Origin: Mariniplasma anaerobium
GTDB lineage: Bacteria; Bacillota_I; Bacilli_A; Acholeplasmatales; Acholeplasmataceae
Assembly (NCBI RefSeq): GCF_016865445.1
Contig: NZ_AP024412.1
Span: 806,001-870,000, forward strand
Reading direction: 5' to 3'
Length of the DNA stretch: 64,000 nucleotides
The first letter of the stretch is position 1, and every line of letters begins with the position of its first letter. A program made the position numbers and the translations under genes. Below, piece by piece: positions 42,272-57,766 of the stretch. The notes under the pieces are model-generated. The model was not told the DNA's origin. It saw only the letters and a list, made by a program, of their open reading frames with translations, and ran no database searches.

Positions 42272-44035
42272 TTATAAAATTTGAATAGTAAACCAAAAAT
42301 GTACACCTTTTTCAACATTTTTCACATGGCATTCAGATCGAAATTGATTAAGTGTTTGATTTACGATATAAAGTCCAAGACCTGTGGAACCTTCATGACG
42401 ACTGCGTTCTTTACTTACACGATAAAACGGTTCAAATAGACGTTCAATTTCTTCATCAGGAATAGTAATTCCATAATTTGTAACACTGATAGTTAAATCA
42501 TTTTTGTCTTGGATAACTTTGATTTCAATAGTTTCATTTGTAGGTGTATATTTTATTGCATTGGTCAATAGATTTGACAAAACTAATTCTAATTTTTGTG
42601 GATCCGAGAGTAATTCAACATGAAGCAAATCCATTTTTATCTCAAGTTCTTTTTGAAAAGCCAATAATTGTAAACGTGAGACAACTTGTTCAATTAAATT
42701 ATCGATATAAAACTTTTGATAATATTGTTTATACTGTGGAGTATCTGATTGATAAACAAGCATCATATTTTTAATCATTTTATTCGTATTTTTTATTTCT
42801 TGTTGAATCAATTTAAGTTGTTTAGTTTGTTCCGCTTTAGTTTCAAATAGATTATGTTCCAACGCTTCAGAAGAAGCTTGTATCACACTTAAAGGTGTTT
42901 TTAACTCATGAGACATTCCGCGAATAAATTCTTTTCTTCTCTCATCATTTTTATTTTCAATTTCTAAGGATTGTGACAATTGTTTATTTTGTTTTGATAA
43001 TTGTGATAAAGTCATTTCTAAATTGGCACTTAAAGTATTGATGTTGAAAGCTAATTCTTGAAATTCATCTTTTGTTTCAATTGTTATTGGGTTATGAGAG
43101 AAATCAAGATTGCTTAATTTTTTTGCAGCGTTATTTAGGGTAACCAGTGGTTTAGAAAATTGTTTTGAATAGAAAAAGGCAGCAATCATTAACACGCCAA
43201 CAACTATGATGAAAGTATAAATGTTTAAAGTTCTTACTGCAGAAACGATGCGTGTTATTTGTGACATTGGATATACTGCAATCAATGTATATGGAGTATC
43301 CTCAATTGATGTGTTTACAAAATAAACAAGACTTTGTTCATTATTTGTTTCATTGGTGCTTACATAATAATAAGATGATTCACTAAAAACTGTCAAATCT
43401 TCATAGTTTTCTGATAAGATATTTAATATTTCATTTGAGATGATTGGATTTATTGGACTTTGAGTAGTATTTTTAATTACCTCAGAACTTAAGATCTCTC
43501 CTGTGATTGTAAATGTAGAGCTAAGATCTAAATCTGGTGAATAATCGCTAAACATAGGATTGATTCTCCCGCTACCAGAATGAATAATACGTTCACCATT
43601 CACACTCAGTGACACAGGGATATAGCGTTCTGTTGGCGCATGATATACAATTGTTGCATCTACTGTAGAACCAATTAAATACACATCATCGTGATTTGGC
43701 ATATATATTTCATAAGTTATATTATCTTGTATGACTTCAACGATTTGTAGTTGCAGTAAGCCCAATTGATTTGTAAGACTGTTAGTAGGCACGAGTAGAG
43801 AAGTTGTTTGTGTTTCTTGTGAGAAATCCAATATAATTTCATTTATATCAGCTACGGATTCTAAAGGTAAAATATTTTCAATTTCATTTTTAGTCGTATT
43901 AATTGTACGATTCGTGTAAAATTGTTCAAATACTGTGCTTTGAAATAAAAAAATAACTAAGAAAATTAAAATATATAAGAGTGTTAACGATAAAAATAGT
44001 TTTTTGATAAAACTTTTTTTAATATTTTTGAACAT
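42272..44035 (-). CDS. Membrane sensor histidine kinase
   Basis: 587 residues. TM1 (about 12-34), a ~230-residue extracellular sensor, TM2 (about 270-292), HAMP (about 293-350), a coiled coil, then the kinase core: phospho-acceptor His376 in MSHELKTPLSVIQ, N box LLTNAIKYTP and G box STGLGLYIVNQ. The kinase looks catalytically complete. The sensor domain has no recognised ligand motif. It overlaps the response-regulator gene by 17 nt. Its likely targets are the neighbouring genes with CACAA repeats. Confidence 0.92.
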   Translation of the reverse strand: MFKNIKKSFIKKLFLSLTLLYILIFLVIFLFQSTVFEQFYTNRTINTTKNEIENILPLESVADINEIILDFSQETQTTSLLVPTNSLTNQLGLLQLQIVEVIQDNITYEIYMPNHDDVYLIGSTVDATIVYHAPTERYIPVSLSVNGERIIHSGSGRINPMFSDYSPDLDLSSTFTITGEILSSEVIKNTTQSPINPIISNEILNILSENYEDLTVFSESSYYYVSTNETNNEQSLVYFVNTSIEDTPYTLIAVYPMSQITRIVSAVRTLNIYTFIIVVGVLMIAAFFYSKQFSKPLVTLNNAAKKLSNLDFSHNPITIETKDEFQELAFNINTLSANLEMTLSQLSKQNKQLSQSLEIENKNDERRKEFIRGMSHELKTPLSVIQASSEALEHNLFETKAEQTKQLKLIQQEIKNTNKMIKNMMLVYQSDTPQYKQYYQKFYIDNLIEQVVSRLQLLAFQKELEIKMDLLHVELLSDPQKLELVLSNLLTNAIKYTPTNETIEIKVIQDKNDLTISVTNYGITIPDEEIERLFEPFYRVSKERSRHEGSTGLGLYIVNQTLNQFRSECHVKNVEKGVHFWFTIQIL

Positions 44036-44702
44036 TCAATTTATACCCCACTTTAAATATAGTTTCAATCATGTCGCCGTAAGGATTTAATTTTTTTCTG
44101 AGCATTTTAATATTTGTATCGACTACACGTTCTTCAACATATACATCCATACCCCAGACTTCATCTAAAAAATCGGCACGCGAAAGCACTTCATTAGGAT
44201 TTTTTCCCATAAATACAAGCATATCAAATTCAGTTTTTGACAATTGCAATCGCTGATGATCAAGAGTAACCGTATGCGCGGGAATATTGATAGATACCTG
44301 GTTAAACTCTAAAATATGTCCATTTTGTTTATGTGAAGAGTCAATTCTCTGTAAAATCGCTTTAACTTTCATCACTAAAACTAGTGGCGAAAACGGCTTT
44401 GTAACGTATTCATCAATTTGTAATTCATAACCTTTTAGCTGATCTTCTTCAGTATCTAATGCAGTTAATAATATGATGGGGACATCGCTATCTTCGCGAA
44501 TTTTTTCTGCGACTTCAAACCCATCTACTTTAGGCATCATGATGTCTGAACATACAAAATCAACATTATGTTTCTTAAAAGATAATATACCGTCTAAACC
44601 ATTTGAAGCAGTCAATACAGTAAATCCTTCTTTTTTAAAATAGGATACCAATATTTCAAGAAGTGATGTTTCATCTTCGATTAGTAAAATAGTTTTATTC
44701 AT
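44019..44702 (-). CDS. OmpR/PhoB-family response regulator
   Basis: 227 residues. Receiver domain: acidic pocket IEDE, phospho-acceptor Asp53 in VCSDIMMPKVDG, LLTALD and the Lys in EYVTKPFSP. C-terminal winged helix: LSKTEFDMLVFMGKNPNEVLSR and EERVVDTNIKMLRKKL recognition helix. The ATG at 44702 follows GAGGTG; an in-frame ATG at 44726 precedes that site. OmpR-family proteins bind tandem half-sites about 11 nt apart, exactly the spacing of the CACAA repeats at its own promoter and those of 44943, 46030 and 46682. Confidence 0.93.
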   Translation of the reverse strand: MNKTILLIEDETSLLEILVSYFKKEGFTVLTASNGLDGILSFKKHNVDFVCSDIMMPKVDGFEVAEKIREDSDVPIILLTALDTEEDQLKGYELQIDEYVTKPFSPLVLVMKVKAILQRIDSSHKQNGHILEFNQVSINIPAHTVTLDHQRLQLSKTEFDMLVFMGKNPNEVLSRADFLDEVWGMDVYVEERVVDTNIKMLRKKLNPYGDMIETIFKVGYKLNVQKY

Positions 44703-44724: not shown

Positions 44725-44764
44725 ATTATAACAGTAATCTATCATTTTATGTGAGAGTTTTGTG
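44725..44764 (-). promoter_or_regulatory. TCS promoter with two phased CACA repeats
   Basis: Minus strand: CACAAAA (44758-44764) and CACATAA (44747-44753), 11 nt apart, then 16 nt to the consensus -10 TATAAT (44725-44730). The downstream repeat occupies the -35 position, as expected for autoactivation by an OmpR-type regulator. Confidence 0.65.
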
Positions 44765-44871
44765 AAGATGAAAAACTATCATTAGACAAATCAAAACATT
44801 ACGATTAATCTTTTTTCTTTATTGATATAGTTTTTTCTATAATGATATTTGGATAACAGTCAATTAAAAAA

Positions 44872-44912
44872 CACAAAAATATCACAACTTTTTTCAAAAG
44901 ATTTAATATACT
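44872..44912 (+). promoter_or_regulatory. FMN-binding gene promoter with phased CACA repeats
   Basis: CACAAAA (44872-44878) and CACAACT (44883-44889), 11 nt apart; 17 nt further is the -10 TATACT (44907-44912). There is no -35 consensus; CACAACT takes its place. Confidence 0.65.
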
Positions 44913-44942
44913 ATGTTTAATAAAAAAAATATGGAGGAAAAA

Positions 44943-45923
44943 ATGATTATAATTCTTATCATTATCTTGGCATTAATCGCTTATGTTTATCCGAAAATAA
45001 TCACGAAAACATTTGTACCTACTACAATTTTATTCACTTTAATTAGCGCAACTGCATTTTTTGTTGACTTTTCTTTACTAAGTCCATTTAAAACTGGGTT
45101 TTTGGGGTTAGCATTTTTTATAATTGTCATGTTTGCAGGTGCTATGCCTAAACATTCAGTTTTGGAAAAGAAATTTAAAAGTGTCCGTAAAGAATACTCT
45201 ATTTACGGATTCATTACAATTACACCTCATGCTATTTTATTTTTCATTGATATGCTTAACGAAACAATGAATTTTGAGTGGTTTGGTGTTATGACTTACT
45301 TAATTATGGTTCCCTTATTTATAACGTCTTTCTATATAATAAGGAAAAAGATGTCTAACAAAACTTGGAAAATATTACAAAAAGCATCCTATATTATATA
45401 TTTACTTCTGTATATTCATTTAATTTTGTTTTATACAGGAAACAATATTTATCTATATACAGCTTTATTTGTTTTTTATGTAGCACTCAAAAATTATAAT
45501 CATTTTTCTTTTTCAAAAACTGTCATCAGAAAATTGATAATTTCTAGTGTCGCTGTGGTACTTATTTTATCTATTGCTTATATAGGAACAGATGGTCAAA
45601 TCATCGCATCTCATGCTGTTAATAAACTATACATGTCAGATTTATCAATTGAAGATGGAGTGTATTATGGATCAGCTGATGGTTATGAAGACTACACTGT
45701 TGTTGTTGAAGTCATCATTGAACAAGGCGTCATCAAGTCTATTATTCTACTTGATGATGGAAGTAGTGAGCCAAGAAAAGAATATGACTATACAGAAATC
45801 GCAAAAGATGTCATTGAAGAAATCATTGAAAAACAACACACAGATATAGATGTTGTTAGTGGGGCGACCCATACAGTTGATGGAGTCGTCAACGCTGTCT
45901 TAGATGCTTTACTAGAGCATTAA
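44943..45923 (+). CDS. Membrane protein with C-terminal FMN-binding (flavinylated) domain
   Basis: 326 residues: about seven helices (1-215) with the look of a ferric-reductase-like core, then an extracellular FMN_bind domain (about 235-326). SGATHT (306-311) matches the [S/T]GA[S/T]x[S/T] signal at which ApbE transferases link FMN to the final Thr. GVYYGSADGYEDYTVVVEV is the domain's typical start. It probably carries electrons across the membrane to an external acceptor (inference). The ATG at 44943 follows TGGAGG; the in-frame ATG at 44913 overlaps the -10 region. Confidence 0.82.
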   Translation: MIIILIIILALIAYVYPKIITKTFVPTTILFTLISATAFFVDFSLLSPFKTGFLGLAFFIIVMFAGAMPKHSVLEKKFKSVRKEYSIYGFITITPHAILFFIDMLNETMNFEWFGVMTYLIMVPLFITSFYIIRKKMSNKTWKILQKASYIIYLLLYIHLILFYTGNNIYLYTALFVFYVALKNYNHFSFSKTVIRKLIISSVAVVLILSIAYIGTDGQIIASHAVNKLYMSDLSIEDGVYYGSADGYEDYTVVVEVIIEQGVIKSIILLDDGSSEPRKEYDYTEIAKDVIEEIIEKQHTDIDVVSGATHTVDGVVNAVLDALLEH

Positions 45924-45942
45924 ATGCATTTCATAACTCTAT

Positions 45943-45993
45943 CACAACTAAGCACAACTTCATCACAACTTCATGCATCAAAGCATATAAAAT
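45943..45993 (+). promoter_or_regulatory. Copy 1 promoter with three phased CACAACT repeats
   Basis: CACAACT at 45943-45949, 45953-45959 and 45964-45970 (10- and 11-nt steps). 17 nt after the last is TAAAAT (45988-45993), inside TATAAAAT. No -35 consensus. The arrangement is that of class II activation by an OmpR-family regulator. Confidence 0.7.
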
Positions 45994-46029
45994 AGAAGTA
46001 TCTTAAAAAAAGAAAAGGAGAAAAACAAA

Positions 46030-46512
46030 ATGAATTTATTATTAGCAGGTGTCATGTTATTTTCAGGAGGAAGCGTAATCGCAATGCAAAACGAAGAAAT
46101 TAGCGATGTAGTCAATGATACAGTTGAACATGTTTCACAATATGTACAAAATCGTTTAGGTCGTCGTATAGCAGATACAGTATCAGAAACTGGATTTCCA
46201 TATCCTCAAGAAGCTTTCTTATCTACATTAACAGAAGATCAAGTATTTGCCATCACATCTGAAATTGATGTCATCAACGCAACATATGATTGGTCAAATA
46301 TGACAGAAGAAGAAATTAGTGTAGCACTTCAAGAAGTACATCAAATGCTTGATGACCTTTATACTGAACTTGGCGTTGAAGCACCACAAACTCAAAATCA
46401 ATACCGTGGAGCAAATAGCAAAGCAAAAGGTAAAGCGTCAAGCGAAAATGCTGGAACATATGATGGCGAATGTCCATATGACGATATCGTCGATGATTCA
46501 GACATATTATAA
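46030..46512 (+). CDS. Exported small protein of unknown family, copy 1
   Basis: 160 residues. A hydrophobic N-terminus (NLLLAGVMLFSGGSVIA) resembles a signal peptide but has no positive residue before the core, which is atypical. The rest is helical and acidic (ISDVVNDTVEHVSQYVQNRL, TEEEISVALQEVHQMLDDLY), then a Gln/Asn/Gly/Lys linker (QTQNQYRGANSKAKGK) and an acidic tail ending DGECPYDDIVDDSDIL with one Cys. Strong AAAAGGAG site. No family recognised. Presumed target of the adjacent TCS. Confidence 0.8.
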   Translation: MNLLLAGVMLFSGGSVIAMQNEEISDVVNDTVEHVSQYVQNRLGRRIADTVSETGFPYPQEAFLSTLTEDQVFAITSEIDVINATYDWSNMTEEEISVALQEVHQMLDDLYTELGVEAPQTQNQYRGANSKAKGKASSENAGTYDGECPYDDIVDDSDIL

Positions 46513-46594
46513 TTTAGAAAAATATTTATAAACTTATGTCTGATGAAGTTAGATAACTTAGTTTTTAAAAGATAAAAATTATTCACTATTCTAT

Positions 46595-46645
46595 CACAAC
46601 TAAGCACAACTTCATCACAACTTCATGCATCAAAGCATATAAAAT
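46595..46645 (+). promoter_or_regulatory. Copy 2 promoter with three phased CACAACT repeats
   Basis: Identical to copy 1: CACAACT at 46595-46601, 46605-46611 and 46616-46622, then TAAAAT at 46640-46645. Confidence 0.7.
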
Positions 46646-46681
46646 AGAAGTATCTTAAAAAAAGAAAAGGAGAAAAACAAA

Positions 46682-47164
46682 ATGAATTTATTATTAGCAG
46701 GTGTCATGTTATTTTCAGGAGGAAGCGTAATCGCAATGCAAAACGAAGAAATTAGCGATGTAGTCAATGATACAGTTGAACATGTTTCACAATATGTACA
46801 AAATCGTTTAGGTCGTCGTATAGCAGATACAGTATCAGAAACTGGATTTCCATATCCTCAAGAAGCTTTCTTATCTACATTAACAGAAGATCAAGTATTT
46901 GCCATCACATCTGAAATTGATGTCATCAACGCAACATATGATTGGTCAAATATGACAGAAGAAGAAATTAGTGTAGCACTTCAAGAAGTACATCAAATGC
47001 TTGATGACCTTTATACTGAACTTGGCGTTGAAGCACCACAAACTCAAAATCAATACCGTGGAGCAAATAGCAAAGCAAAAGGTAAAATGGCAAGCGAAAA
47101 TGCTGGAACATATGATGGCGAATGTCCATATGACGATATCGTCGATGATTCAGACATATTATAA
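46682..47164 (+). CDS. Exported small protein of unknown family, copy 2
   Basis: 160 residues, identical to the 46030-46512 product except that the linker reads KGKMASEN instead of KGKASSEN. Synonymous positions are also identical, so the copy is recent or kept uniform by gene conversion. Unlike copy 1 it is followed by a strong terminator (47198-47252). Two copies with separate promoters suggest selection for dose. Confidence 0.8.
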   Translation: MNLLLAGVMLFSGGSVIAMQNEEISDVVNDTVEHVSQYVQNRLGRRIADTVSETGFPYPQEAFLSTLTEDQVFAITSEIDVINATYDWSNMTEEEISVALQEVHQMLDDLYTELGVEAPQTQNQYRGANSKAKGKMASENAGTYDGECPYDDIVDDSDIL

Positions 47165-48725: not shown

Positions 48726-49841
48726 CTATGCTATTTTCGCTACAATTTTGATTTTTCTTAGTAAATATGATATCCCAAAACTGATGATAAACCCAAGAAT
48801 GAACACCAATACTCCTTCTAAAATACCGTTAAAATCAATTCTATAGAAGATACCCTGTAACGCTGATACTACTCCATAGTGCAGTATGTAAATCATAAAA
48901 GCATTCTCAGATAGAACAATTAAAAATTTTGGTTCTTGATTTAAATGATTACTAAATAATGCTATCAGCCCTATTGTGATCAAAACAAACATTAGCGTTG
49001 TTAGAACATCACCAATATAATAGAGTATTTCAAAATGAGAGTTCATTAATAATAGCGCAAAAAATAGTCCAGATATAATTCCTAACACTAATATGAAAAT
49101 ATAATTTTTCATTCGATATCTCTGTACAATAAACGTATTTTCAATTCCGTTTCTTCCTAGTACTATTCCAAATAGATACATCATAAAATAAACTGGAACA
49201 CGTCCAATTTGAGCACTGAAAGGTCCAAACAATGTAACAAAATCATAACCTAAAAATAAAGAGCCAGTTCTATATAACAACAAACCTAAAACAAGCATAG
49301 TTACTAAAAAAATCACCTCATTCTTACGAAGTAGTTTCGATACTTTATTCTCTTTTTTAAAGAATGGAGAAATCACAGTGAAAATAACATTGAACAGTAA
49401 TAGCACCCATAGAAACCACAAATGTTGAGTAGGAAAAAAATTTATAACAACGAATTCATAGTATCCTGCGAAATTACTTAAACCAAAATTAATGTTTGGA
49501 TCAGTTCCCTTGAATACTTCCATTAGATAAAAACCAACGATATTGACTGTATACGTAGCAATAAAAAATACTGCCACTAATCGTAGTAATCTTGACAACA
49601 AATAGGATACTTTTCCTCTTGAAACTAAACTTTTATATGCAAACAGACCTGCAATGAAGAAAAACGTATACATAAAGAAATTATCAAATAAGACTGTCAC
49701 ATATGAAAATATTATCGTTCTATTTCCATCATGTATGGGTGATGCCGTTCCTGATGGTGTGAATGCTAAAAACGCATGATGTGCTACAACAAACATTGTA
49801 AGCATTAATTTCAAATAACTAATTCCATTGTATTTTTTCAT
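48726..49841 (-). CDS. Acyltransferase-3 family membrane protein
   Basis: 371 residues with ten or more helices. The N-terminal block SYLKLMLTMFVVAHHAFLAF carries the conserved His pair region of family 3 acyltransferases (OafA/NolL/YrhL), and FFFIAGLFAYKSL and HLWFLWVLLLFNVIF are typical. It probably transfers acyl groups to a surface glycan or lipid; the substrate is unknown. AAGGAGGATT before ATG 49841. It lies inside the putative transposon-bounded segment. Confidence 0.87.
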   Translation of the reverse strand: MKKYNGISYLKLMLTMFVVAHHAFLAFTPSGTASPIHDGNRTIIFSYVTVLFDNFFMYTFFFIAGLFAYKSLVSRGKVSYLLSRLLRLVAVFFIATYTVNIVGFYLMEVFKGTDPNINFGLSNFAGYYEFVVINFFPTQHLWFLWVLLLFNVIFTVISPFFKKENKVSKLLRKNEVIFLVTMLVLGLLLYRTGSLFLGYDFVTLFGPFSAQIGRVPVYFMMYLFGIVLGRNGIENTFIVQRYRMKNYIFILVLGIISGLFFALLLMNSHFEILYYIGDVLTTLMFVLITIGLIALFSNHLNQEPKFLIVLSENAFMIYILHYGVVSALQGIFYRIDFNGILEGVLVFILGFIISFGISYLLRKIKIVAKIA

Positions 49842-49960
49842 ATTAATCCTCCTTAGACTTTCAAATAATATTCATTAGTATAAATTGATTTCTAAAGAAA
49901 AACTATCAACGTTTCATTGAATCACTTGTATTTATTTAATTATAAACTAAATATTATTGG

Positions 49961-50012
49961 TAATCGTGTAAATCCATTTTAAATCGTGTATTTTGAAATG
50001 TAATCGTGTAGC
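49961..50012. repeat. Three iterated TAATCGTGTA repeats (IS21-like end)
   Basis: Units at 49963-49970, 49983-49990 and 50003-50010; 20-nt period. Their complement TACACGAT shares the TTACAC core with the left set. Confidence 0.5.
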
Positions 50013-50037
50013 GTAATCTATTTTTCTACTGATTTTG

Positions 50038-50056
50038 TATCAAAATAGGTAATTCT
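50038..50056. repeat. Imperfect 19-bp direct repeat, right copy
   Basis: GTATCAAAATAGGTAATTC; partner of 47648-47666, same orientation. Confidence 0.5.
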
Positions 50057-50117
50057 CTACCTATTGAGTTACATATTTTAACACAACACTAATAACTAGA
50101 ACTGGCTAAATAAAGAC

Positions 50118-50149
50118 AAAAAAGCCTGATACCTAATCGTATCAGGCTA
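50118..50149 (-). terminator. Terminator of ssrA
   Basis: AGCCTGATAC (50124-50133) pairs with GTATCAGGCT (50140-50149); six to seven T follow on the minus strand. Confidence 0.92.
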
Positions 50150-50161
50150 ATGCTTTGCTAA

Positions 50162-50502
50162 TGGTGGAGATGAGGGGAATTGAACCCCTGTGCAAAACAC
50201 TTCATAACATACTTTCTACATGTTTATTTTATTTATATTTTCTTATGGTTAACTAAACAAACAAAAGTCAAACATTATATCCTAAAGTATTCGTTTAACA
50301 GACTAGGAAATCTGAGAAGTATAACTTACTGAATTGGACCGTGTATGAACCGTAAGTAAATTCATAGTTGGCTCGCACCTATTCTTAGGCAGCGTAAGAA
50401 AAATTTTGGTTTCCGGTTATTAGATAACCTCGGCTTTTTTACATGAGCAACCATGACATGCTTATATGTTATTCCATGCCGTGACGAATCCAGAACATCC
50501 CC
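50162..50502 (-). ncRNA. ssrA: tmRNA
   Basis: 341 nt. The 5' end GGGGATGTTCTGGATTCG and the 3' end (T-arm GGTTCAATTCCCCTC, acceptor, CCA at 50162-50164) form the alanine-tRNA-like domain; a 7-bp acceptor stem pairs GGGGATG with CATCTCC. The tag template most likely reads GGA to TAA at 50414-50385, encoding GNQNFSYAA after the charged Ala, shorter than the common LAA-ending tags. It rescues stalled ribosomes. One-piece form, with its own promoter and terminator. Confidence 0.95.
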
Positions 50503-50511
50503 AGCGGATAT

Positions 50512-50540
50512 ATATTACAATAAAAGATGATAAATGTAAA
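50512..50540 (-). promoter_or_regulatory. Promoter of ssrA
   Basis: Minus strand -35 TTTACA (50535-50540), 17-nt spacer, -10 TAATAT (50512-50517), nine bases before the RNA 5' end. Confidence 0.7.
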
Positions 50541-50603
50541 GAAAAAGTGAATAAAATAGCTAAATCGGACATATACGCCCTACTCAAACTTCAAAATTCA
50601 TTA

Positions 50604-50744
50604 TATAGTACACTTGAAGACAAATCATTTGTCTAAATAAAGGTGTGTTAGTATGGTATCTGTGCTACTAAATTTAGTGGAGGGGGATATCCATCCTAAA
50701 GCCTACAGGGCAATAAACAATTTTATTATTGTTGCCCTTTTTAT
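50604..50744 (+). ncRNA. Candidate small RNA of unknown class
   Basis: -10 box TATAGT (50604-50609), then about 130 nt with no ORF: a GACAAAT/ATTTGTC hairpin (50618-50632), a structured middle (TAGTA...TACTA, ACTAAATTTAGT, GGAGGGGGATATCC) and a strong terminator (AGGGCAA 50707-50713 with TTGCCCT 50732-50738 plus T run). It is not recognised as SRP RNA, RNase P RNA or a known riboswitch; 6S-like RNA remains possible. It could also be a leader of the HAD gene, but the terminator argues for an independent transcript. Confidence 0.5.
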
Positions 50745-50861
50745 TTAATAATTTCATCCTTTATTGTATAATGTATAATGTACGATAAAACGATATTCAT
50801 ATATATGATATGCAAAATATATCTATGATATAATGATAAAAACAATAGAATGGAGAACAAG

Positions 50862-51515
50862 ATGATCAAAGGAATAATTTTTGACATGGATGGAACCATA
50901 TTAAACACTATAGACGATATAAAAGATAGTGTAAATCATGCGATGAAAATTTGTGATCTACCTTTAAAGACCCTGCAAGAAGTTAAAGATGGTGTAGGTA
51001 GAGGTGCAATCAATTTAATAGAGGATGTTGTTCCAAAACATTTATCACAAGAAGATATAAAAATAGTATATAAAATCTATCAAGATCACTATGATAAAAA
51101 CTCTAATCATAAAACAGGACCTTATCCTGGTATTTTAGCATTATTAAAAAAATTAAAAGAAATGAATTATAAATTAGCAGTTGTTTCAAATAAGCATAAA
51201 TATTTAGTTGAAGAGCTCAATCATAATATATTTAAAGATTACTTTGACTTTTCTATGGGAGAAGTTAAAGGTGTTCCTATAAAACCTGAACCAGATATGC
51301 TATATATGGCACTTGATCATTTAGGTTTAAAAAAGTCTGAAGTCCTCTTCATTGGTGACTCAGATGTTGATATGATAACAGCTAACAATGCAGGAATCAC
51401 CAGTGTAGGTGTTACTTGGGGATTTAGATCAAAGGACGTCTTGATTAAGCATCAAGCTTCATATATCATTGATCAACCAGATCAATTATTAGAAATTATT
51501 AAAGAGGTAGAATAA
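50862..51515 (+). CDS. HAD-superfamily phosphatase (PGP/PpaX-like)
   Basis: 217 residues. Motif I DMDGTILNT (nucleophile Asp), motif II VVSNKHK, motif III Lys in GVPIKPEPD and motif IV FIGDSDVDMITANNAG are complete; a helical cap follows motif I. Likely a phosphoglycolate- or pyrophosphate-type phosphatase. The ATG at 50862 follows TGGAGA; an in-frame ATG at 50850 overlaps that site. It is 1 nt before the ABC exporter start, so it may be cotranscribed. Confidence 0.87.
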   Translation: MIKGIIFDMDGTILNTIDDIKDSVNHAMKICDLPLKTLQEVKDGVGRGAINLIEDVVPKHLSQEDIKIVYKIYQDHYDKNSNHKTGPYPGILALLKKLKEMNYKLAVVSNKHKYLVEELNHNIFKDYFDFSMGEVKGVPIKPEPDMLYMALDHLGLKKSEVLFIGDSDVDMITANNAGITSVGVTWGFRSKDVLIKHQASYIIDQPDQLLEIIKEVE

Positions 51516-51516
51516 A

Positions 51517-53745
51517 ATGGCAATGATTAAATTAGATCAAGTATCAAAATATTATCGTTCTGAAGATACAGTATCTGTTGGGATGAAAAATATTAGCCTA
51601 GAATTTGAACTAGGTGAATTTGTTGCGGTTACTGGTGAATCAGGAAGTGGGAAATCTACACTACTTAACGTTATTAGTGGACTAGATGGTTATGAAGATG
51701 GTGAACTTTTCTTATTTGGAGAAGAAACATCACATTATACGATTGCTGATTGGGAGCGTTATAGAGGCACATATATAGGTTTTGTTTTTCAAAGTTATAA
51801 TATTATTGATTCTTATACAGTCTATCAAAATGTCATGCTTGCATTAGAAATTCAAGGATATGATAAACATAAAAGAAAACAAAGAGCATTAGAACTTATT
51901 GATCAAGTAGGTCTAACATCACATAAAAACCATAAAGCATCTAAATTATCAGGTGGTCAAAAGCAAAGAGCTGTTATTGCAAGAGCACTTGCAAAAGACT
52001 GTCCTGTTATTGTTGCAGATGAACCTACAGGTAATCTTGATTCAAAATCTGCAGAACAAGTTATGGATTTACTTTTTAGTATTTCTAAAAATAAATTAGT
52101 TATCGTTGTAACCCATGATTATTCACAGGTTCAAGCGTATGCTACTAGAAAAATTAAAATGCATGATGGTGAAGTTGTAGAAGATAAACCGATTAAAAAG
52201 CCTGAAAAAGTAGAACCAGGCAAGGTTATACAACCTAAACGCATGCCGTTTCTATCACTTTTAAGATTTGCAGTAAGAAATCTTTTAGCAACTCCTAAAA
52301 AACTATTTTTCTTGATGATTATGCAAATCTTGGTCATTGGGGTATTTACAATTGTTTATACAAATCAAATTAGTAATATAAGAGAAATAGGGTTAGAACA
52401 ATCTTCAGTCTATCCATCAGTACCAGAAACAAGACTCATAGTAGAAAAAAGAGATGGTACAGCTTTTACAGCTGCTGAGATAGAAGAATTAGAAAGCAAT
52501 AGAAGAGTAGAAGCCGTTTATCCAAATGCAATGAATTTTTATAATGAAACTAGTTTATATGTCGTTAAAGAAAATCAATTTGAATACGGTAGAGCAAATG
52601 TAGATGGCACTGATAGTGTGGTTTCCTTAAGTCAAAGAGATGTTGACGGAGAATTACCTGTATTAGCTAATGAAATCGTCATGAGTGCGAATTATGATTT
52701 CAATGTTGGTGACACAGTAGTCATCAATGTAGGGAATGCATATTATTGGCAACCTGAAGGCGCAAGTACTATATCCGTTGGTACATTTGTTGTTAGTGGT
52801 ATTGATAAACAAGATAGAGATATCATTTATTTTTCAGAAGCATATCTTAATCAGCCATCAGCAAATGAATCATTAATTGATTATCAAAAACTTTCAAATT
52901 TAAGCGATAGAATAAATTATGAATTAATGATCAACTTTGATGGTGATCAAATGTATGGGTATAGAAAAGAAGGAACAAATATCACTGAGGATATCCTTTT
53001 TGATGGTGGTGGGACGCGTACAATTTTAACAAATCAAACTATCCAATTTAGCATATATGATGTAAATTATCAATCACAAATTTCTATGACGTTAACAGGA
53101 TTAACATTAAATGTTCCTGAAGAGATATATTATGGTTTTACAGTAAATCAAAATACACATGATGATATTAGAGATTATTTTTTAACTTTACTAGAAAGTA
53201 CATATACTATAGAACCAAAACAATATGTATCAGTTAGTGTTAGTGGATTTTATGCAGGGAATAGATTATTAAACACTTTAGATTCAGATGCATATAAGAT
53301 ATATTACCCAGCTAACATTTCTGGGGCTATGAGAGAAATACAAGTCTTTTTTGCAAGTTTCTTAGCAGTCATCTTATTGACTTTATTTGGCATGTTTTTA
53401 TATTCAATTGTACATGCAGTTACTAAGAATGTCATGAACGCAAGGAAAAAAGATTTTGCGATCTACAGGTCTATTGGAGCAAATAAGGCAACACTTGCAC
53501 AATTGGTAGTTATCGAGCAGGTGATGATGTCTACCATTGGATTTGCAATTACCATATTGTTAATAACAGTTTTAAGCAACAATATATATGTCTTAACTGC
53601 AACGATTAAGTACATGGAAGTTAAAGATTATTTCATCTTGTTAGGTGCATTCATGTTCTTTGGTGCATGGCTTGGTTTAAGATTTAATAAAAAAGTGTTT
53701 AATCAATCAGTTATTGAAACACTTACACAAAGTAGGGGTGAATAA
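51517..53745 (+). CDS. Fused ABC ATPase-FtsX-type permease (MacB-like exporter)
   Basis: 742 residues. The N-terminal ATPase (1-225) has GESGSGKST, SGGQKQRAVIARAL and VIVADEPTGNLDS. A transmembrane helix (about 265-285) is followed by a ~330-residue extracellular region and three C-terminal FtsX helices (about 610-735). MacB/LolD-type systems move lipoproteins, peptides or toxins by mechanotransmission. It pairs with the next gene, so a heterodimer is likely. GAGGTAGAA precedes the ATG at 51517. Confidence 0.9.
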   Translation: MAMIKLDQVSKYYRSEDTVSVGMKNISLEFELGEFVAVTGESGSGKSTLLNVISGLDGYEDGELFLFGEETSHYTIADWERYRGTYIGFVFQSYNIIDSYTVYQNVMLALEIQGYDKHKRKQRALELIDQVGLTSHKNHKASKLSGGQKQRAVIARALAKDCPVIVADEPTGNLDSKSAEQVMDLLFSISKNKLVIVVTHDYSQVQAYATRKIKMHDGEVVEDKPIKKPEKVEPGKVIQPKRMPFLSLLRFAVRNLLATPKKLFFLMIMQILVIGVFTIVYTNQISNIREIGLEQSSVYPSVPETRLIVEKRDGTAFTAAEIEELESNRRVEAVYPNAMNFYNETSLYVVKENQFEYGRANVDGTDSVVSLSQRDVDGELPVLANEIVMSANYDFNVGDTVVINVGNAYYWQPEGASTISVGTFVVSGIDKQDRDIIYFSEAYLNQPSANESLIDYQKLSNLSDRINYELMINFDGDQMYGYRKEGTNITEDILFDGGGTRTILTNQTIQFSIYDVNYQSQISMTLTGLTLNVPEEIYYGFTVNQNTHDDIRDYFLTLLESTYTIEPKQYVSVSVSGFYAGNRLLNTLDSDAYKIYYPANISGAMREIQVFFASFLAVILLTLFGMFLYSIVHAVTKNVMNARKKDFAIYRSIGANKATLAQLVVIEQVMMSTIGFAITILLITVLSNNIYVLTATIKYMEVKDYFILLGAFMFFGAWLGLRFNKKVFNQSVIETLTQSRGE

Positions 53746-53747
53746 TC

Positions 53748-56183
53748 ATGATTAAAGTTAATCAGTTAAATAAATACTTTAATAAACGTAAGAAAAATGA
53801 AATTCACGTCTTAAATGATATCACTGTAGAATTTCCTGAAAAAGGATTAGTCGTTCTACTAGGACCTTCAGGCTCTGGTAAAACAACACTATTAAATGTA
53901 TTAGGTGGACTTGATAAAGTTCAAAATGGTTCTATTGATTTTGATGGCAATATGATTATGGGATATGATGTTCATACATGGGATAAAATTAGAAATGAAT
54001 ATGTAGGATATATTTTCCAAAATTATAATTTATTACCAGAACTTTCAGTTTATGATAATATAGCATTTGTTTTAAAGATGATGGGAATCAAAGATCCTGA
54101 AATTATTGATCAAAGAGTGCTCTACATTTTAAATGCAGTGCATATGTATCCATTTAGAAAGAAAAAGGCATTACAGTTATCAGGTGGTCAACAACAAAGA
54201 GTTGCAATCGCAAGAGCTTTAGTTAAAAATCCTAAGGTAATTATTGCAGATGAACCTACTGGTAATTTAGATAGTAAAAATACGTTAGACATTATGAATG
54301 TCATCAAACAAATATCTAGTGAAAAACTAGTTGTTTTAGTGACACATGAAAGACATATAGCAGAGTTTTATGGAGATAGAATCATCGAAGTTAAAGATGG
54401 TCAAATTATTTCTGATGTAGTTAATACATCATCAGATGATCATAATATCGCAAAAGATGATACGATTTATTTAAAAGACTATAATCATATTGCAGATGAT
54501 TCACAACATGGCGTTAATCTAAGTTTATATTGTGATGAAGAAGATGATTTAAAAGATGTTGATATTAAATTGATTGTAAAAAATAAGACACTTTATTTGG
54601 ATGTTAAATCACCTTATAAGAAAATGAAATTTGTTGATCAACATGCAGGTGTTGTTATTAAAGATGAACACTATGTTAAAAAAACAAAAGAAGAATTGAT
54701 AGAAACTACATTTGATACAGATATGCTTGATAATAAAAATGTGGATAGACAATCTAAACTAATGGTTTCTATTAAACAATCCCTATGGTTAGCATTCCAA
54801 AAAGTATTAAAAACAAGTCGTAAAGGTAAATTGATGTTATTTTCATTCTTAGTTGCTGGTATGGTTATTGCTGTAACAGTCTCAATGTTAGCATCAGTAG
54901 CTATTCTACAACCAGAACAATACATGAGTATGCCTGAAGGCTATGTCTTAGTTTCAAGAGTAAGTACATCAACTCCTTTTGATGAAGCTGAGTTATTAGC
55001 ACTTAAAGATGCTGATGATGATTCATTTTATATCAATACGCTTGGTCAAGCTCAATTACAGTTTGTTCAACCTAATGGTTCGCTATCTTCTGTAAGTTTT
55101 AGTGGTCAAATTGAATTGACTGATCATGTTACAAAACGTGATCTTGAATATGGAGACTTACCTATAAATGATAATGAAATACTAGTATCTCAATTAATTG
55201 CAGATACGATGATAGATGGAAGTTTATTTATGGGAGGACCTCAAGGACAAGAAATTGGTATTTGGTCTTATGATCATTTAACTAAAGAAGAAGTAAGTAT
55301 TAATGGCGAAAATATTAAGATAGTCGGTATTGTTAAAAGCGATCTTAATTTAGTATATATGTCTGAAAGTTTAGCTAATCTATACTTTAGTACAAAAAAT
55401 AACTTTGGTGCTTTACCATATACATATTTTGATCAAGATTTAGTAGCTGGTAGTCAACCAGAAAAAGGTCAAATTTTAATATCTGAAACTTATTATCAAT
55501 TGATTTTTGGAAATAATGATTATACAGCAGGTTTTCCTAAAGCAATGGTTGGTCTTGATATTGATGAAATAGCAGGAGTTTTTGCAGATCAAAGTGATTA
55601 TAATATCGTTGTTAGAAATGATGATTTCAATACCCTAAGACTACAAAGCACTGATACATTTGGTTTTTACGTTTACTCAGATAATAGTGCTCAATTGGCA
55701 CTAGATATTGAAGATGATCTTGGTTATAAATCATATGATGTATACCAAGAAGCTTTAACCAACGCAAAAGAAATGAGAGCGGATGTTATTGTTCCGACTT
55801 TAACGACTTCCGCAATTCTAATTGGCTTTGCGATGGTTGGATTCTATTTCGTTATTCGTTCAAGTTTAATTTCAAGAATTTATGAGGTTTCAGTATATCG
55901 TGCATTAGGTGTTAAGAAGAATGATATCTTTGTATCCTTCATTGTTGAGATTTTTGTATTAACAAGTATTTCTACATTAATAGGATATATTATTGCATCT
56001 GTGAGTTTATCAAAATTATCTAATGGATTAATAGGAGAATTTAATTTCTTCTTAGTAAATCCTTTAACATTTTTACTTGGATTATTAATAGCTTATGTGA
56101 TCAATATGTTGGCTGGAATTTTACCAGTTTATCTATTGTTAAGAAAGACACCAGCACAAATATTATCTCAATACGATATTTAA
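53748..56183 (+). CDS. Fused ABC ATPase-FtsX-type permease (MacB-like exporter), second subunit
   Basis: 811 residues. ATPase domain: GPSGSGKTT, SGGQQQRVAIARALVKN, VIIADEPTGNLDSKN. An acidic linker (about 225-350) precedes TM1 (about 365-388), an extracellular domain, and three C-terminal helices with the FtsX block SRIYEVSVYRALGVKKNDI. It starts 3 nt after the upstream gene's stop codon. The close relative next to it and matching layout suggest a heterodimeric exporter, as in BceAB- or MacB-like systems. Substrate unknown. Confidence 0.9.
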   Translation: MIKVNQLNKYFNKRKKNEIHVLNDITVEFPEKGLVVLLGPSGSGKTTLLNVLGGLDKVQNGSIDFDGNMIMGYDVHTWDKIRNEYVGYIFQNYNLLPELSVYDNIAFVLKMMGIKDPEIIDQRVLYILNAVHMYPFRKKKALQLSGGQQQRVAIARALVKNPKVIIADEPTGNLDSKNTLDIMNVIKQISSEKLVVLVTHERHIAEFYGDRIIEVKDGQIISDVVNTSSDDHNIAKDDTIYLKDYNHIADDSQHGVNLSLYCDEEDDLKDVDIKLIVKNKTLYLDVKSPYKKMKFVDQHAGVVIKDEHYVKKTKEELIETTFDTDMLDNKNVDRQSKLMVSIKQSLWLAFQKVLKTSRKGKLMLFSFLVAGMVIAVTVSMLASVAILQPEQYMSMPEGYVLVSRVSTSTPFDEAELLALKDADDDSFYINTLGQAQLQFVQPNGSLSSVSFSGQIELTDHVTKRDLEYGDLPINDNEILVSQLIADTMIDGSLFMGGPQGQEIGIWSYDHLTKEEVSINGENIKIVGIVKSDLNLVYMSESLANLYFSTKNNFGALPYTYFDQDLVAGSQPEKGQILISETYYQLIFGNNDYTAGFPKAMVGLDIDEIAGVFADQSDYNIVVRNDDFNTLRLQSTDTFGFYVYSDNSAQLALDIEDDLGYKSYDVYQEALTNAKEMRADVIVPTLTTSAILIGFAMVGFYFVIRSSLISRIYEVSVYRALGVKKNDIFVSFIVEIFVLTSISTLIGYIIASVSLSKLSNGLIGEFNFFLVNPLTFLLGLLIAYVINMLAGILPVYLLLRKTPAQILSQYDI

Positions 56184-56203
56184 AATTAAAGAAGAGGGAT
56201 TAT

Positions 56204-56413
56204 ATGTTCGAAAAACTAAAAAATATGTTTATGTTTAAGAATACTAGAAGACAAAAAATTATATATTTAAGTATTTGGACGATTTTTACTGGACTTATAT
56301 TTATCTCTATATTTGATTCATTTGATGATAAGGTTTTATTAATTGCACTTTATGTATTAACTTGGATTATCAATTTATCCTTAGCTTTACTACCCATTAG
56401 AAATAAGGATTAA
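56204..56413 (+). CDS. Small two-helix membrane protein of the exporter operon
   Basis: 69 residues: a basic N-terminus (KNMFMFKNTRRQK) and two transmembrane helices (about 19-38 and 43-63). AAGAGGGATTAT precedes the ATG, and it is 20 nt after the second exporter gene, so it is probably cotranscribed. Unknown family; perhaps an accessory subunit. Confidence 0.65.
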   Translation: MFEKLKNMFMFKNTRRQKIIYLSIWTIFTGLIFISIFDSFDDKVLLIALYVLTWIINLSLALLPIRNKD

Positions 56414-56435
56414 TAAATAAGTTCTTATAAATAAA

Positions 56436-56458
56436 AAAAGGCTCAATAGAGCCCTTTT
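56436..56458. terminator. Bidirectional terminator
   Basis: GGCTC (56440-56444) pairs with GAGCC (56449-56453), extended by AAAA/TTTT with one bulged C. Confidence 0.8.
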
Positions 56459-56459
56459 A

Positions 56460-57068
56460 CTATAACCAGGTTGTAATATCTTTTGAATCTAGTCGAACTG
56501 AATGATAACCATCTTCAGCTCTTTTACCAATCGATAATATCATGACAGGTTTATATCTGTTTTTATCAATCGATAAAGCTTCTGCAATCTCTTCATGTTT
56601 AAATCCACCAATTGGACATGTATCATATCCATGTGATCTTGCAACATGCATAAGTTGCATTGAAACTAAACCTCCATCAAGCCATCCAGTTTTTTCTATA
56701 GAGATTTCTGTAAGATTATCTACCATGTTTGAAATTGATCTGAGTTGTCTTTCTTTGACATCTGATGGCATGATTTTATGATCAATAGCTTTATCAAATA
56801 TTTTTTCTGCATATTGAAATTTTTTTAAGTCTGTAAATATGCAAATCATTGCTGCTGATGTATCTAGTTGTGATTGATTACCATATAATATAGGTCTTAA
56901 TTTTTCTTTTGCTTCAGGTGTTTCTACTATATAAAATCTCCAAGACTGCATATTCATTGATGAAGGAGCACGAGTTGCTTTTTCAAGCATTTCTGTCATT
57001 TCAGTTTTTGATATTTTTACAGTTGGATCATATATTCTAATGGATCTTCTTTCTAATAATTCTTTCAT
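56460..57068 (-). CDS. Nitroreductase family protein
   Basis: 202 residues. LLERRSIRIYDPTVKISK, ATRAPSSMNMQSWRF (FMN binding) and DTCPIGGFKHEEIAEAL are classic for oxygen-insensitive NAD(P)H nitroreductases of the NfsB/YodC group. It is distinct from the longer protein at 3955-4779. ATG 57068 follows AAAGGAGG. Substrates may include quinones or nitroaromatics. Confidence 0.88.
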   Translation of the reverse strand: MKELLERRSIRIYDPTVKISKTEMTEMLEKATRAPSSMNMQSWRFYIVETPEAKEKLRPILYGNQSQLDTSAAMICIFTDLKKFQYAEKIFDKAIDHKIMPSDVKERQLRSISNMVDNLTEISIEKTGWLDGGLVSMQLMHVARSHGYDTCPIGGFKHEEIAEALSIDKNRYKPVMILSIGKRAEDGYHSVRLDSKDITTWL

Positions 57069-57241
57069 TATTTAACCTCCTTTAATTCATATTGATTATA
57101 ACATTTATATTATTTTATTAAGTGCAAAATGCTTAAATTCTAAAATTAGAAGAACAAATTTATGAATTATTTTTATAAAATTATGTGAAAGCTAATTATA
57201 AGATTTCTTTGTGATATAATGATTTTGAAAGGGTGATTCAT

Positions 57242-57766
57242 ATGACAACACATTTTATTTTAATTAGACATGGTGAGCCTCGGTATGATGAAGTTACTGA
57301 TAAAGGATATGTAGGTATGGGCTATGAATTTGGCAAACTTACAGAAAACGGAATTGCTCAAGCAGAAAGCAGAGCAAAAGATCCTCTACTTCAAGATTCA
57401 GAAATTATTATATCTTCACCTTATACACGTGCACTTCAGACAGCAGCAATCATTTCTAGACAAACGGGTATTAAACTTGTTGTAGAACATGATTTACATG
57501 AATGGATGCCAGATACTAAATTTATTTATGATTATGAAGTAAGTGGTGCTTTTCAAGAATATTTCGAAGCAGAAGGCAAAAGAAATGTTGGTCATAAGTT
57601 CCGTTGGGAAGCATATGATGATTTAAAGAAAAGAGTCCATTTAACATTATTAAAATATAAAAACTACAAGCGTGTTATCGTTGTATGTCATGGTATTGTT
57701 ATGTCTTCATTAACAAGGTTTGATGATATTATTGAACATTGCGGTGTTAGAGAAGTAGATTTATAA
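57242..57766 (+). CDS. Histidine phosphatase superfamily protein
   Basis: 174 residues. The phospho-acceptor motif LIRHGEPRYDEV, SSPYTRALQTA and the second catalytic His in VVCHGIVMSS place it in branch 1 (PGAM-like). Length and motifs fit phosphoserine- or sugar-phosphate phosphatases; no mutase-specific features. The ATG at 57242 follows AAAGGGTG. It overlaps mutY by 1 nt (TAATG). Confidence 0.87.
   Translation: MTTHFILIRHGEPRYDEVTDKGYVGMGYEFGKLTENGIAQAESRAKDPLLQDSEIIISSPYTRALQTAAIISRQTGIKLVVEHDLHEWMPDTKFIYDYEVSGAFQEYFEAEGKRNVGHKFRWEAYDDLKKRVHLTLLKYKNYKRVIVVCHGIVMSSLTRFDDIIEHCGVREVDL

Follow-up and report, generated by a model that had tools for sequence, protein, structure and literature searches.

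Phased direct repeats at the promoters of an OmpR/PhoB-type two-component system and of a small predicted secreted protein: a candidate autoregulated circuit

The locus described here raises the question of whether short phased repeats in front of several neighbouring genes are the sites through which an adjacent response regulator controls them. It lies within a 64,000-nt stretch of DNA (the window) from a genome of 1.9 Mb, where a two-component system (TCS), a membrane oxidoreductase gene and two copies of a gene for a small protein stand side by side (Table 1). A sequence-only reading of the window had proposed that CACA-type repeats unite these genes into one regulon. Overall, an autoregulated OmpR/PhoB-type TCS that would activate the small-protein gene and a few membrane genes through repeats phased at 10-11 nt can be proposed with good confidence, and the block very probably represents a real control circuit, small and previously undescribed but of a familiar kind. 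No relevant study came up when open papers were searched for Acholeplasma together with two-component systems and response regulators, and nothing on point was found in the literature on TCSs with FMN or ferric-reductase proteins. For a lineage whose gene regulation is hardly documented, the probable targets of a TCS were read from sequence alone, with confirmation on held-out genomes.

Both domains of the response regulator (RR) scored above the Pfam cut-off, the receiver domain (PF00072) at 2.4e-25 and the C-terminal winged-helix domain (PF00486) at 1.6e-21. The sensor histidine kinase (HK) has an extracellular sensor region of approximately 235 aa, whose model (pTM 0.80) showed no significant match to PDB folds, and HK orthologs in other genomes were 35-55% identical. 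The oxidoreductase gene (FRE-FMN) is divergent from RR-HK. ORFs called from 44726 for RR and from 44913 for FRE-FMN probably have wrong starts since both begin in or beside -10 boxes; the true RR start is probably at about 44702 rather than at the upstream ATG at 44726, and transcripts would begin a few nt upstream of the RR start and of the FRE-FMN start at 44943. The two small-protein genes (SP1 and SP2) arose by a recent tandem duplication of 652 bp that included the promoter (window 45930-46881), with 99% identity over a 300-nt repeat that also includes the promoter. SP is a new protein family: no relatives were found in Pfam, NCBIfam or PDB sequences and nothing credible on plasmids. Its members share the conserved stretches LTEEQ and YDW-NMTDEEI, some carry an internal duplication, and the SP model was helical at low confidence (pTM 0.45) with no match to PDB folds.

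Table 1. Positions of the genes and promoters of the block (window coordinates) and of FtsX-type ABC permease loci in other genomes (locus coordinates)
Feature	Position	Strand	Description
HK	42272..44035	-	membrane sensor histidine kinase; HAMP, HisKA, HATPase_c (Pfam)
RR	44019..44702	-	OmpR/PhoB-family response regulator; Response_reg and Trans_reg_C (Pfam)
TCS promoter	44725..44764	-	CACA at 44764 and 44753 (11 nt apart); -10 TATAAT 44730-44725
FRE-FMN promoter	44872..44912	+	CACA at 44872 and 44883 (11 nt apart); -10 TATACT 44907-44912
FRE-FMN	44943..45923	+	326 aa; ferric-reductase-like transmembrane domain PF01794 and C-terminal FMN-binding domain PF04205 (Pfam)
SP1 promoter	45932..45993	+	CACA at 45943, 45953 and 45964; -10 TATAAA 45986-45991 or TAAAAT 45988-45993
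SP1	46030..46512	+	160 aa; signal-like N-terminus; predicted secreted or membrane-tethered helical protein
SP2 promoter	46582..46645	+	CACA at 46595, 46605 and 46616; copied along with the gene
SP2	46682..47164	+	tandem copy of SP1; protein 99% identical
FtsX-type ABC permease, L282	4489-5877		
FtsX-type ABC permease, L283	4664-6714		
FtsX-type ABC permease, L300			
FtsX-type ABC permease, L301			

The half-sites in this block include TATCACAAC and CTTCATAA and have the consensus TNTCAYA(A). CACA half-sites in 10-11-nt tandem were found at all four promoters for which they had been reported, although the TCS pair lies at 44764/44753 and not at 44758/44747, a displacement of 6 nt; its repeat spacing and its -10 box were otherwise as described. 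The SP1 promoter has an additional degenerate fourth unit, CATA at 45932, that the earlier reading did not contain. When a hexamer was started at the promoter-proximal CACA, the spacer to the -10 box was 16-18 nt at all promoters (16-17 nt had been given), and the proximal repeat does occupy the -35 position as claimed. The count of four repeat-bearing promoters holds only in part, since those of SP1 and SP2 are products of one duplication, which leaves three independent promoters.

The rarity of the repeats was assessed by pattern searches for the whole genome and by a matrix scan for the 64-kb window. The pattern CACA-N7-CACA-N18-20-TANNNT had five matches genome-wide, four of them in the block, and the reversed control pattern had three. 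The one match outside the block (L012) overlaps the 5' end of a gene on the opposite strand, with no same-strand gene closely downstream within the stretch read. The genome scan for the looser CACAA-N6-CACAA that had been suggested as a check gave seven matches, and the four outside the block were all within ORFs. Repeats at unrelated promoters would have spoken against a single regulon, and with these two patterns none occurred there in the host genome. A tandem-unit matrix built from seven units of the three promoters gave eight scores of at least 13.5 in the window, all intergenic and all in the block, while the highest score elsewhere in the window was 13.1. MacB-type ABC transporter genes near the TCS (51517-56183) were rejected as regulon members, as the best matrix score in 49500-57500 was 10.9. 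Such genes also occur near the TCS in another genome, G110 (L103 16633-18000), and the promoters in both places are without repeats. More weight was placed on held-out genomes than on the rarity counts: the pattern had been derived from the sites themselves, which makes those counts post hoc in part.

Among the other 87 genomes of the host family, no relative of HK or SP was found, and none of the ferric-reductase relatives in that family was linked to a TCS. When the genome contigs were scanned with the RR alignment, the matches were all generic response regulators of at most 47% identity. RR relatives were located in other families by a class-wide search, and in the tree the window RR, the G110 RR and ten others formed a clade (RR-A; support 98/97), with the window RR sister to that of G110 (support 100/100). 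A paralog adjacent to gidA (RR-B) was separate from RR-A. The recognition-helix segment is near-invariant in RR-A (ERVVDTNIKxLRKKL or a close variant) and similar in RR-B. The closest relative of the block is an RR-HK-SP cluster in G110 (L103), with identities of 72% for RR, 55% for HK and 64% for SP, and the fixed pattern had exactly two matches in L103, at the RR promoter and at the SP promoter. An SP profile extended the family to a dozen further genomes, where the gene is mostly unlinked to RR.

Promoters of these genomes were scored as held-out data with a matrix trained on the host window alone, and p values were obtained against dinucleotide shuffles. The promoters of nine SP genes in eight genomes (G110, G101, G208, G315, G291 with two, G121, G461 and G464) scored at p≤0.022. 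The SP promoter of G123 has a visible CTTCAYAA triplet (CTTCACAAGAATTTCATAAGTGCTTCATAG) that the CACA-trained matrix did not score as significant. For RR-A, each of the nine promoters that could be tested scored at p≤0.036. The FtsX-type ABC permease was found only in four genomes that bear RR-A, and all four of its promoters carry the repeats (p≤0.001). When 206 upstream regions from 17 loci were ranked, the top 15 were SP, ABC-permease or RR promoters, or a divergent neighbour that shares the intergenic region, and several of the repeat-bearing target genes are unlinked to the regulator. The repeats are conserved in other families in front of RR and SP orthologs, unlinked SP genes included, which supports the proposal of a regulon. 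A highly improbable origin of the repeats is chance in AT-rich DNA or a side effect of local duplication: the SP1 and SP2 promoters are indeed copies of each other, but those of RR, FRE-FMN and SP are not mutual duplicates, and neither the genome-wide rarity nor the conservation at RR and SP in held-out genomes of other families fits that explanation. In most genomes of families f14 and f5, the repeats at the RR promoter are reversed in orientation and farther from the -10 box, and autoregulation may for this reason be negative there.

Seven SP promoters scored poorly (p 0.08-0.88: G156, G132, G350, G098, G399, G241 and G459), and most of them share another conserved element, TTTTCCAAYAAAA, which suggests a second regulator for the same SP family. 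This element was observed upstream of the SP genes at L207, L210, L211, L213, L214, L215 and L239, in genomes mostly without RR-A. Repeats at SP and RR-A occurred together in eight genomes, RR-A only in one, repeats only in two and neither in six (Fisher p=0.013, in counts that ignore phylogeny and genome incompleteness and in which G123 was scored positive by eye). The single genome with RR-A and an SP promoter without repeats was G098. The two with repeats at SP in which RR-B was found and RR-A was not were G208 (99% complete) and G464 (53% complete). In addition, TCACA-N6-TCACA promoters are conserved before an orthologous lipoprotein gene in G132 and G350 (L273, L275) and before a small membrane-protein gene in G098 and G350 (L274, L281), all genomes with RR-B, and these genes are possibly RR-B targets. 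From the G208 and G464 repeats and from those at the lipoprotein and small-membrane-protein genes, RR-B may read similar repeats in other genomes.

The same exceptions, together with the similar recognition helix of RR-B and the conserved repeats before other genes in RR-B genomes, would also fit a real operator whose main or additional reader is another OmpR-family regulator, with the neighbouring RR one of several. This was considered quite unlikely for the host, where RR-B was not found, the other OmpR-family response regulators are at most 35% identical to RR and strict repeats are confined, among gene promoters, to those of the block. The absence of RR-B and the distance of the other regulators leave the neighbouring RR as the only good candidate in the host genome.

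For the preferred reading, in which the neighbouring RR is the regulator, the following course of events is proposed. An extracellular signal would act on HK, which would phosphorylate RR, and phosphorylated RR would bind head-to-tail, as dimers or trimers, on TNTCAYAA repeats phased at 10-11 nt. With the promoter-proximal repeat at the -35 position, RR would stand in for a -35 element by recruiting RNA polymerase, and would activate rather than repress its targets. In the host these would comprise the operon of RR and HK itself, the membrane oxidoreductase FRE-FMN and both copies of SP; regulators of the RR-A clade in related genomes would control SP wherever it is located and, in four genomes, the FtsX-type ABC transporter as well. 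Activation of the OmpR/PhoB type, as the sequence-only reading had suggested, fits the RR domains, the close relation of the DNA-binding domain to those of PhoB and ArlR, and published direct-repeat sites, to which proteins of this family attach as tandem dimers. The E. coli PhoB sites at phoB (TTTCATAAATCTGTCATA) and pstS (TGTCATAAAACTGTCATA) are of this kind, and PhoB turns on pstS via RNA polymerase recruitment (PMC10294691). The block shares with E. coli PhoR-PhoB an OmpR/PhoB-family regulator with a closely related DNA-binding domain (1gxp and others), head-to-tail repeats of 11 nt with a TCAYA core beside the -10 box, and the apparent autoregulation; the half-site is TNTCAYAA here and TGTCAYA in the Pho box.

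This likeness leads to the alternative that the block is the PhoR-PhoB phosphate system of the lineage with a shrunken or rewired regulon, and that the repeats are Pho boxes. Apart from the half-site, the top NCBIfam matches point the same way (PhoB for RR; PnpS, WalK and PhoR for HK), but all of them fell below the curated cut-offs, including the PhoB equivalog: RR reached 191.5 bits against 270 (NF053854) and 186.6 against 296 (TIGR02154), and HK 173 against 400 (PnpS) and 166 against 334 (PhoR). The strict CACA pattern, CAYA variants aside, marks no other gene promoter and hence no pst operon, and the targets seen (SP, ABC permease and FRE-FMN) are not phosphate genes. A phosphate system was accordingly rated as unlikely. 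Another regulator with comparable sites is PhoP of M. tuberculosis, which binds TCACAGC-N4-TCACAGC direct repeats as a cooperative tandem dimer (PMC4832192). The TCACA core and the 11-nt period are common to both, whereas PhoP belongs to a different phylum and its targets are unrelated. Judged by alignment, several base-contacting helix positions of PhoP presumably differ from those of RR.

Once the signal is known, the function of SP could be tested directly. The finding also opens a way into a secreted protein family that has no name yet, is found in several families and time and again appears as the target of RR. In the Gram-negative Cpx and Zra systems, small periplasmic proteins (CpxP, Spy and ZraP) are found. 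The RR-HK-SP system would resemble these as a TCS with a small secreted helical protein as conserved output and with LTEEQ-like stretches. However, no match to the LTXXQ (Spy/CpxP/ZraP) Pfam family was found at E≤1 in 13 SP members, and the host lineage is monoderm. A role in membrane, metal or redox stress is plausible, as is the earlier label of an envelope response. A tentative extension, which we regard as possible but doubtful, is that SP is the dominant and conserved output of a new system for extracytoplasmic stress, be it of the membrane, redox or metal kind, in Acholeplasma-type and related monoderm Bacilli, that it acts as a secreted helical protector or feedback factor like CpxP, Spy or ZraP, and that it has spread horizontally with the TCS and been rewired to different membrane partners, an FMN oxidoreductase here and an ABC permease elsewhere.

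The third partner of the system varies. FRE-FMN is linked to RR-HK only in the host genome, and four other genomes have the FtsX-type permease, with an ATPase after it wherever the sequence was read. In two genomes (G462 and G463) the permease was present and SP was not detected. Finally, two SP genes adjoin genes for heavy-metal P-type ATPases (L288 4420-7989 and L296 6075-9839), a possible hint of a metal-related role.
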